From an uncultured Clostridia bacterium (lineage in GTDB: Bacteria; Bacillota; Clostridia; Oscillospirales; Acutalibacteraceae), in contig CANQDR010000001.1 of assembly GCA_947593615.1 (NCBI GenBank), forward strand, positions 1 to 64,000: a stretch of 64,000 nucleotides of DNA, read 5' to 3'. How positions within the stretch are numbered: the stretch's first letter is position 1; the number at the start of each line of letters is the position of its first letter. The notes under the pieces are model-generated. The model saw nothing but the letters and a program-made list of their open reading frames with translations, was not told the DNA's origin and made no database searches. The position numbers and the translations under genes are program-made. Of the stretch, positions 57,217-59,911 are shown in pieces.

Positions 57217-58026
57217 TTATTGGTTTTGTGATTTTGCTTTGGGCTTTGATTTTTTCTTACTGCTCTTGCTTTGCTTTATCATATCATATAGAGCGGCAAT
57301 CGCGTCAGACACCGTTCCTACCTCGTCGATAAGACCTTCTTCGACGGCCTCTTCACCCTCAAGAATTGTTCCTATATCCATAACAAGCTCACCTGTATTG
57401 AGAACAAGCTGATTATATCTCTCTTTTGAAATTCCTGAATTTTCGGCAACAAAAGTTGTAATTCTGTCCTGCATTTTCTGAAAATATTCAAATGTCTGCG
57501 GAACACCGAGCGTGAGTCCGGTAGTACGTACAGGGTGAACAGTCATTGACGCACTTTTTGCTATAAAGCTTTTCTTCGCTGCAACAGCCAGAGGTATTCC
57601 GATTGAATGTCCTCCGCCGAGAACAATTGACACCGACGGTTTTTTCATGCCTGAAATCACTTCTGCAATGGCAAGACCAGCTTCGACATCACCGCCGACA
57701 GTATTAAGAAGAATAAGCAGTCCGTCTATGCGCTCATCCTCTTCAATTGAGACAAGCAGCGGAATTACGTGCTCATATTTTGTGGTTTTGTTCTGCTGAG
57801 AGAGAATATAGTGACCCTCAATCTGACCGATTATTGTAAGACAATGAATTATACTGTCCTTGTGTGCCGCTAATACCGAACCTGTTTCTCCAATCTGGTC
57901 GGTATGTTCTTCGTTAATAGGACTGTCATTTTCAAGCTTTTGAGGATTATCGTCGGCGCAAGGATTTTTTACGTAGTTATCCTTAGTCTTTTTCGCTGAC
58001 TTTGAATCTTTTGTTTTTTGTGACAT
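57217..58026 (-). CDS. tepA: TepA-like ClpP-family serine protease
   Basis: ClpP/crotonase-fold protease, related to Bacillus TepA (translocation-enhancing protein). From ATG 58026 (MSQKTKDSKSAKKTKD), after GGAGGTG, it has 269 residues; the track's longer start lies in the leader. A charged, disordered N-terminal ~60 residues precedes the fold; LILLNTVGGDVEAGLAIAEVI near 135-155; putative nucleophile in GGGHSIGIPLAVAAK near 165-180; then MTVHPVRTTG. The C-terminus is Lys/Ser-rich. It has two tandem repeat promoters upstream. Near ftsK, as in Bacillus. Confidence 0.88.
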   Translation of the reverse strand: MSQKTKDSKSAKKTKDNYVKNPCADDNPQKLENDSPINEEHTDQIGETGSVLAAHKDSIIHCLTIIGQIEGHYILSQQNKTTKYEHVIPLLVSIEEDERIDGLLILLNTVGGDVEAGLAIAEVISGMKKPSVSIVLGGGHSIGIPLAVAAKKSFIAKSASMTVHPVRTTGLTLGVPQTFEYFQKMQDRITTFVAENSGISKERYNQLVLNTGELVMDIGTILEGEEAVEEGLIDEVGTVSDAIAALYDMIKQSKSSKKKSKPKAKSQNQ

Positions 58027-58099
58027 TATAGTGCACCTCCGAGATTTATTCTCTCCAAAAAGCACAATATAATGTATAGGCAATAATAATTATGTTTCA

Positions 58100-58158
58100 A
58101 TGTTCTCTCAGCCGTCAAAATCTTTGATTTTGGCAACGGCGTGAGGTTATTATAACAT
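58100..58158 (-). repeat. 59-bp direct repeat, copy 1 (promoter plus leader hairpin of tepA)
   Basis: Identical to 58437-58495 except one base. Read on minus it contains an extended -10 (TGTTATAAT, ATTATA at 58149-58154) and, just after the predicted start, a hairpin GCCGTTGCCAAAATC ... GATTTTGACGGC, then TGAGAGAACAT. It lies about 75 bp upstream of the tepA start. No good -35 is visible for this copy. Confidence 0.85.
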
Positions 58159-58436
58159 AATTCTTCAGCGATAGCCGAAAGATGCTGCAAATCGGCAGAA
58201 TTTGTTAAAAAATTCTGTCTCTTGGTAATTTTTATTCAAAAGATAAAGACAAATGTGGAACCTCCGGCGAGGGTTCCCCACCGAAAAACAGTCCCCCGGA
58301 TTGTTTTTCGCCCCTCCTGCGCTTATAAATCAAATAATTTCGCAGCCTTTAGGCTGCAACGGGGGCGCTGCCCCTCGTCCCCGCCGCCTTTTGAAAAAGG
58401 CGGGCGAAAACTTTTAGCTTTTTTGCTGTTGTAAAA
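58159..58436. other. structured, GC-richer non-coding segment between direct repeats
   Basis: This 278-bp stretch between the 59-bp repeats has no convincing ORF and is more GC-rich than its surroundings. Inverted repeats follow each other: CAGAATTT/AAATTCTG (about 58197-58218), GAACC/GGGTTC (58258-58276), CGAAAAACA/TGTTTTTCG (58282-58310), GCAGCC/GGCTGC (58341-58356) and CCGCCTTTT/AAAAGGCGG (58384-58403). The minus-strand promoter in copy 2 would transcribe it. It may be a repeated genomic element or a structured leader RNA; I recognise no family. Confidence 0.6.
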
Positions 58437-58495
58437 ATGTTCTCTCAGCCGTCAAAATCTTCGATTTTGGCAACGGCGTGAGGTTATTATAACAT
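58437..58495 (-). repeat. 59-bp direct repeat, copy 2
   Basis: Second copy of the promoter-leader repeat, 337 bp from copy 1. It contains the extended -10 and the GCCGTTGCCAAAATC hairpin. The single difference from copy 1 falls in the hairpin loop (TTCGAT against TTTGAT on plus), so pairing is preserved. Confidence 0.85.
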
Positions 58496-58514
58496 TTCAT
58501 CCAACTTTTTTCAA
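58486..58514 (-). promoter_or_regulatory. distal tepA-direction promoter
   Basis: On the minus strand TTGAAA (58509-58514), 17 bp, TATAAT (58486-58491), with TGT before the -10. The -35 is outside the repeat, the -10 inside it. Transcription would run through the structured segment toward tepA, giving a leader of about 450 nt. Confidence 0.65.
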
Positions 58515-58606: not shown

Positions 58607-59911
58607 TTGACGTCCGACATAATTATGGGTATTGTCGTTGCTGTTCTTGTACTGCTTTCGGCATTTTTTTCGGCAACTGAAACGGCATTTTCATTTGTCA
58701 ACAAAATCCGAATCCAGCAGAGCGTAGATAACGGAAATAAAAAGTCTAAAAACGCTCTTTATGTAATTGAACATTTTGACAATGCCCTGACTACAATTCT
58801 TATCTGCAATAACATTGTAAACCTAAGCTGTTCTTCAATTGCGACTGTACTTTGCCTGAGACTGTTCGGAGATATAGGCACGGCTATTGCCACGGGTGCT
58901 ACAACTCTGCTTGTGCTCACCTTTGGCGAGGTAATTCCAAAATGCCTTGCAAAGGAACACTGCGACAGCTTTTCAATTAAAACCGCAGGTATTTTAAGAA
59001 TGCTTATGTTCATTCTTACTCCGCTGGTTTTTGTTTTTATAAAACTTAAATCCCTTGCACTTAAAATCGCAGGAGGTTCAGAGGACATCCCGTCTGTTAC
59101 GGAGAATGAACTTAAATATATTGTAGAAAGTATTGAGGAAGAGGGCGTTCTTGAAGAAAGTGAAAGTGAAATGGTTCGCTCTGCTCTTGATTTTGACGAA
59201 AAAACCGCCGAGGAGATATTAACTCCGCGTGTTGACGTTACTTTTATAAGCGTTGACGACAGTCAGGAGAAAATCAAAGATATAATAATTGAGCACAGAT
59301 ATTCGCGTATTCCCGTATATGAGGAAACAGTTGACCACATAGTGGGTATTCTTCATACTAGAGATTATCTTGAATCGCTTGCGGACGGCAAAGCACCGAA
59401 TGTGCGTGATATTATGCAGCCGCCCTACTTTGTTTTCAGAACACAGCAGCTTTCAAAAATATTAAGTGCATTTAAGCGTACAAAAATTCATCTTGCTATA
59501 GTAACCGATGAATACGGCGGAACTCTGGGTATTGTTACAATGGAGGACTTGCTTGAAGAGATCGTGGGTGAAATATGGGACGAAGATGAAGAAATCGAAC
59601 ATAATTACTACAAAATAGGCAAAAACGAGTTTCTTGTAAACGGCGATATTGAGCTTGACGATATGCTTGCACTGTTTGATATGGATGAAAACGACATAGA
59701 AAGCGACAGTATCACCGTAGGAGGTTTCATTCTTGAAAATGCGGGTACTATTCCCCACAAGCGTGAAAGCATTGAAGCAAGCGGTTTCAGATTTACCGTT
59801 ATGGAGGTAAAAGACCAGAGAATAATCAGAGTGGTTGTGAAAAAGCTCGACAAAGAAAATCCTGAAAATGATGAAAACGACAGCGAAACAAAAATAAATA
59901 CAGACGAATAA
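58607..59911 (+). CDS. CNNM/CorC-type hemolysin-family membrane protein
   Basis: 434 residues. N-terminal DUF21 (CNNM) domain with three or four helices (about 1-190; FFSATETAFSFVNKIRIQ near 18-35 is the signature), then a CBS pair (about 205-325; LTPRVDVTFISVD, YSRIPVYEE, VTDEYGGTLGIVTMEDLLEE), and a C-terminal CorC_HlyC domain ending acidic. Homologues take part in magnesium or sodium transport and cation homeostasis; the old hemolysin label is misleading. TTG start 58607 after GGAGTG. Monocistronic, terminator follows. Confidence 0.93.
   Translation: MTSDIIMGIVVAVLVLLSAFFSATETAFSFVNKIRIQQSVDNGNKKSKNALYVIEHFDNALTTILICNNIVNLSCSSIATVLCLRLFGDIGTAIATGATTLLVLTFGEVIPKCLAKEHCDSFSIKTAGILRMLMFILTPLVFVFIKLKSLALKIAGGSEDIPSVTENELKYIVESIEEEGVLEESESEMVRSALDFDEKTAEEILTPRVDVTFISVDDSQEKIKDIIIEHRYSRIPVYEETVDHIVGILHTRDYLESLADGKAPNVRDIMQPPYFVFRTQQLSKILSAFKRTKIHLAIVTDEYGGTLGIVTMEDLLEEIVGEIWDEDEEIEHNYYKIGKNEFLVNGDIELDDMLALFDMDENDIESDSITVGGFILENAGTIPHKRESIEASGFRFTVMEVKDQRIIRVVVKKLDKENPENDENDSETKINTDE

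Follow-up and report, generated by a model that had tools for sequence, protein, structure and literature searches.

A most likely mobile family of hairpin repeats docked behind the -10 box of tepA in an uncultured Clostridia bacterium

Why should the tepA gene of an uncultured Clostridia bacterium be preceded by two near-identical repeats, each with a -10-like hexamer and a hairpin, on either side of a strongly structured segment? The locus lies in the window, i.e. the whole analysed stretch of 64,000 nucleotides, which belongs to contig 1 of a 2.2-Mb draft genome. The first-pass annotation had described near-identical direct repeats with one difference, and we found them as copies of 60 nt each, 98% identical and 337 nt apart from start to start; the sole mismatch (CTTTG / CTTCG) falls in the hairpin's apical loop. 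Read on the minus strand, both copies have TGTTATAAT and then the hairpin, in agreement with their description as promoter and leader-hairpin units, and all signals of the region are on this strand, facing tepA (Table 1). The stretch between them is GC-richer and holds many stems, again as described. The minus-strand leader (58482-58026) has a fold of -152.7 kcal/mol, with z = -5.8 against dinucleotide shuffles.

Table 1. Positions of the features discussed in the tepA region, in coordinates of the window.
Feature	Position	Strand	Remarks
Family A core, gene-proximal unit	58099..58158	-	H1 58107-58145; -10-like hexamer 58154-58149; R1 model match 58087-58165, 98.6 bits
Family A core, upstream unit	58436..58495	-	H1 58444-58482; R1 model match 58424-58502, 78.2 bits
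Native tepA promoter	58486..58514	-	-35 TTGAAA 58514-58509, spacer 17, -10 TATAAT 58491-58486; predicted start near 58479
A-linker remnant (hairpin part beside inner -10)	58159..58206	-	58159-58191 84-88% identical to linkers of other arrays; by-eye comparison
Family B copy, hairpin-rich dispersed repeat	58207..58434	+	~10 further genome copies, 86-93% identity
tepA, ClpP/TepA-like protease, downstream gene	57217..58026	-	ATG at 58026, GGAGG upstream; start codon read from sequence
CNNM/CorC-like protein, divergent neighbour	58607..59911	+	Not the array's oriented partner

Searching the genome for the repeat unit, as had been proposed, produced nine matches at E <= 3e-22, which excludes chance for the 60-mer. 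These nine copies, here called family A, sit at three loci: two at tepA, five on contig 2 in an array of period 128 beside a DUF1015 gene and a tRNA, and two before a Tex gene on contig 4. A TPP riboswitch (RF00059) lies on the far side of the contig 4 array in the divergent direction (L043 4317-4422).

The stretch between the two tepA copies belongs to another dispersed family, B. It had been taken as possibly an element specific to tepA, a view that the first-pass annotation itself would have regarded as refuted by many occurrences in the genome; we observed about 11 copies there, with 86-93% identity, embedded in larger mosaics and frequently close to a contig end. These copies probably break the assembly. 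Family B was seen on contigs 6, 9, 10, 16, 24, 27, 29, 36 and 58 (loci L013-L022) amid further hairpin repeats (CACCGCAGA...TCTGCGGTG), and one of its copies lies upstream of leuC.

A comparison with the sister genome G868 (the same DNA as isolate Lapin-014__bin39) clarifies how the two families came together. Its tepA locus carries at least three A units over two contigs, with part of the array unseen in the gap between them, and at the position of the window's B junction there is an ordinary A linker. Therefore, B entered or replaced A linker in the lineage of the window, and from this comparison we conclude that it replaced part of the linker at tepA. The spacing of 337 bp then arises because B was inserted in an array with a period of 128 bp. 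A local 337-bp tandem duplication, which the first-pass annotation had offered and which two near-identical 60-bp copies 337 bp apart do suggest, can be practically discounted, since the 60-mer is the unit of a dispersed tandem family with the usual period of 128 bp in this genome, the inner segment is dispersed, and the sister array has no B at the junction. The insertion of an element, offered alongside the duplication, did hold up, with two repeat families involved and an empty site in relatives.

A unit of family A consists of the 60-bp core and a hairpin linker. Its length depends on the lineage (from ~66 to 140 bp; 128 bp in this genome); the linkers are homogeneous within a genome. In gene orientation the unit reads (TATAAT) AACCTCAC - H1 - GAGAACATTG - linker hairpin H2 - TATGnTATAAT, with the right end being again TATAAT. 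The ends AACCTCAC and TTATGnTATAAT (the TTATGnT end) are not inverted copies of each other, so there are no terminal inverted repeats.

The single loop mismatch at tepA, from which selected pairing had been argued, is by itself uninformative on selection; the argument for pairing comes from compensatory changes. In 56 units drawn from many genomes, most of them picked up by scanning for CAATGTTCTCTCAGNNNTCAAAA (an arm that is thus invariant by selection of the set), the 26 proposed pairs were paired in 93% of cases. Two-sided changes occurred at 13 of the 26 pairs, a number reached in 0 of 500 shuffles, a test that takes no account of kinship among units, and sliding one strand by one column reduced pairing to 37-39%. 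For example, one inner-stem pair is seen as GC, CG, AU and UA, i.e. the sequence varies with the pairing kept. The terminal stem of the linker (AnCATAA ... TTATGnT) was 89% paired compared to 73% after shuffling, again with kinship not taken into account; on the gene strand it had 27 G-U versus 8 A-C cells, an excess that favours a folded gene-sense strand, be it RNA or single-stranded DNA. H1 and the linker stem thus make a subterminal hairpin at each end, and the proposed covariance check of the hairpins in relatives came out positive for both. An outer stem around H1 was considered as the main selected pairing and set aside, as its pairing of 75% falls short of the 89% in the linker stem. 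At L183 (1400-2300), standard A units alternate with a variant whose apical hairpin (GTTCTCAATGCACATTC...) differs from theirs and is longer.

The position of family A relative to promoters is strict. The tepA promoter, with an 11/12 promoter match plus TG, is the best site of the region, and its TTGA..-N17-TATAAT is common to the window, the sister and eight insert-free relatives. In the window and the sister, AACCTCACG follows directly after the final T of TATAAT, whereas the eight relatives have a plain leader there. The repeat is thus inserted 3' of a fixed short target without ordinary target duplication, as the eight empty tepA sites attest, though the TATAAT repeated at its right end is also readable as a short duplication. 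Two further loci were tried as a second empty site: at leuC the native -10 differs between species, which makes the site uninformative, and at DUF1015 the upstream synteny is lost in the relatives found.

Outermost and inner units of the arrays differ in their promoter elements. Across many genomes, TATAAT was present in 55 of 59 outermost units, and 34 of the 59 had a TTG at -35 spacing (16-18); among inner units the respective counts were 21/33 and 1/33. The inner -10s were decayed (AATAAT, TTGAGT, TTAAAAT) with H1 retained. The earlier claim of a second tepA promoter stands in so far as the inner unit holds a probable extra -10; the main promoter was not made by duplication, its -35 and -10 being kept in the insert-free relatives.

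The gene downstream of A was co-oriented with it in 54 of 58 arrays, as counted with heuristic ORF calls in a set that includes some orthologous loci, and in 22 of 25 cases of an independent covariance-model set. Among the exceptions, L160 has a real YajC gene that the crude ORF caller overlooked. On the other side of A there was no strand bias of the neighbouring gene (34 versus 27, by the same calls). A second subfamily of A docks at TATAAG (TATAAG|GAACC or similar), also at sites that are not promoters, among them some that resemble the tRNA D-arm; promoters may therefore be only one class of A target. Copies of this subfamily at L239, L211, L212 and L214 are found within or next to a tRNA gene, at the D-arm sequence GG(A/C)TATAA, and the insert at L239 has the 5' part of the tRNA sequence on both of its sides.

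The distribution of family A is wide and patchy. Matches of the R1 covariance model were found in 16 of 120 genomes of the genus (104 had none), in 24 of 394 genomes (15 of 168 genera) of the order, and in 27 of 391 genomes (20 of 223 genera) of the class Clostridia. Carrier genomes hold from 1 to 12 copies, arranged head-to-tail, and orthologous arrays differ in their number of units: those at the DUF1015/tRNA locus have 5 versus 2, while L192 and L163 have 4 versus 1 with nearly identical upstream flanks. The downstream genes code for proteases, Tex, aconitase-type enzymes, response regulators, PhoH, FtsK, FtsH, RimM and others, and no common function was seen among the arrays compared. Such diversity of genes and patchy turnover are easier to reconcile with a repeat that is, or once was, mobile than with the leader of a dedicated regulon.

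In Clostridium sp. D33t1, a member of another genus, a tepA-like gene also has an A array upstream (L177), apparently an independent occupation of the same promoter. One copy (L347 1501-1564) lies directly after TTGACA-N17-TATAAT in a human faecal sequence labelled Bacteriophage sp. (MT835596.1), where it adjoins sortase-like and other ORFs; this sequence may be an integrative element and a vehicle of spread. The plasmid search gave no match to A. Pattern matches on the virus contigs L195 and L196 had no hairpin and were dismissed as chance.

With the anatomy, the covariation of two hairpins, the docking at the -10, the orientation, the empty tepA sites, the changes in copy number and the patchy distribution all read directly from the sequences, we consider that a tandem array of A, a small and probably mobile repeat, once stood before tepA, with two units left and B interrupting them, and assign to this reading a probability of roughly 0.55. 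A unit of A would insert immediately 3' of a host TATAAT and re-create the TATAAT target with its own right end. A target restored in this way would explain why the arrays are tandem, why no ordinary target-site duplication is present and why the orientation is fixed; the last would follow from the strand specificity of the target. The host -35 and -10 stay intact outside the array; transcription would begin at the first H1 and continue across the whole array as far as the gene, with inner units perhaps adding weak extended -10 promoters. Mobility, which the patchiness and the empty sites suggest (no isogenic pair differing in the element was encountered), might proceed through single-stranded DNA in an HUH-like manner, with the non-template strand exposed at the -10 box as its target. 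The hairpin at the 5' end perhaps stabilises the mRNA, and both the transcription of the array and any regulatory effect are predictions of this scheme. A broader version is possible, if on balance doubtful: class-wide, tiny elements would insert behind the -10 in one orientation because their mobiliser reads TATAAT on the non-template strand exposed in the transcription bubble, and the resulting arrays of 5'-terminal mRNA hairpins would be tolerated or used by the host.

Much of the same evidence could be read as a cis-regulatory leader RNA of the host, with H1 and H2 serving as a sensor or a protein-binding site in the leaders of chosen genes and the copy number tuning the response. Strong covariation, the strict position and orientation in 5' leaders with conserved structure on the sense strand, the G-U excess on the gene strand and the retention of hairpins where inner -10s decay all agree with such a leader. 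On the other hand, the downstream genes have no functional relationship, and orthologous tepA loci as well as 104 of the 120 genomes of the genus lack the element. Besides, if transcription starts where the -10 predicts, the transcript of the outermost or sole unit would lack the 5' half of the conserved AACCTCAC strand. We regard this leader RNA as rather unlikely. A double-stranded operator, i.e. a dyad repressor site overlapping the -10 and +1 of many promoters, is considerably less credible. There is a dyad symmetry around +1, where near-invariant half-sites flank a variable stem (part of this invariance comes from the search pattern), but the inner stem changes with pairing kept, as in a folded strand and unlike an operator read by its sequence; moreover, wobble pairs are strand-asymmetric and a second hairpin is also present in the arrays.

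If A is mobile, it could also be an ordinary DDE-type MITE that drifts into intergenic regions, with its promoter position due to selection against other insertions. The small size, the palindromes and the patchy distribution are MITE-like, and MITEs with -10-like sequences upstream of genes are known (PMC10969869). Still, A lacks terminal inverted repeats with a flanking target duplication, always inserts 3' of TATAAT or TATAAG in a single orientation, and forms head-to-tail arrays, an arrangement not typical of DDE MITEs. Neither the orientation nor the exact base after the -10 would be fixed by purifying selection alone. We therefore hold the DDE-type origin to be improbable.

The two-unit remnant of a probably mobile repeat, as preferred here, invites comparison with known systems. 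Members of the IS200/IS605 family lack terminal inverted repeats and target duplication, insert behind a fixed 5' target and have a hairpin close to either end (PMC7290912). Similarly to their non-autonomous (PATE-like) derivatives, A has hairpins near its ends, lacks terminal inverted repeats and inserts 3' of a fixed target; it differs in its length of only 66-140 bp, in having the -10 box as the target and in the long head-to-tail arrays. The chances that A works like an IS200/IS605 element, yet without being filed there, seem to us about even. The Y1 transposase (PF01797, Y1_Tnp) was absent from 8 of the 14 carrier genomes searched, and in the remaining ones no A copy was near any Y1 locus searched, which leaves this enzyme unsupported as the mobiliser of A.

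Other families show partial likeness. The BOX repeat of Streptococcus pneumoniae is a modular intergenic repeat with variable tandem middle units, a predicted RNA fold and little link to gene function (PMC3049150); unlike A, it is enriched in the gaps between convergent genes and tied neither to the -10 nor to one orientation, and we found no sequence relation between the two. Correia repeat enclosed elements of Neisseria are small repeats located before genes, where they contribute promoter sequence and modify the transcripts (PMC2649163; PMC10969869). They have terminal inverted repeats and can provide promoters at either end, whereas A leaves the host -35 and -10 outside and has one reading direction. 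REP/BIME sequences with RAYT are likewise clustered palindromic extragenic repeats, thought to be moved by Y1-type enzymes (PMC2817692), but REPs usually exceed 100 copies per genome, alternate in orientation in BIMEs and have a GT(A/G)G head, none of which is true for A. No Rfam family matched above the gathering score or at a relaxed E-value, and no description of the element turned up in the open-access literature on repeats, MITEs, BOX, Correia and IS605 or by literal sequence strings. By these two sources, the promoter-docked hairpin repeats of family A are undescribed; they are most likely mobile.

For tepA itself, transcription should start at the predicted position of the native promoter and proceed through the upstream unit, B and the gene-proximal unit to the ATG. 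The predicted leader of ~450 nt would be several times longer than that in the insert-free relatives. Another start, from the extended -10 of the gene-proximal unit, is possible, and a terminator-like stem predicted in the minus-strand leader (58359-58340, with a weak T-run) could attenuate transcription.

The interest of family A is mainly in its strict docking at the -10 and its class-wide spread. If the proposed reading is true, the element lands on the most conserved piece of a promoter, puts a hairpin on or close to the first bases of the transcript and does not destroy the promoter. The leaders of core genes in carrier genomes hold repeats that Rfam leaves unlabelled, which matters for annotation. 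The arrays would be a natural library for the effects of 5'-terminal structure and repeated -10s on expression in gut Clostridia. They would also yield tandem promoter variants that change fast, and could point the way to a mobiliser not yet recognised.
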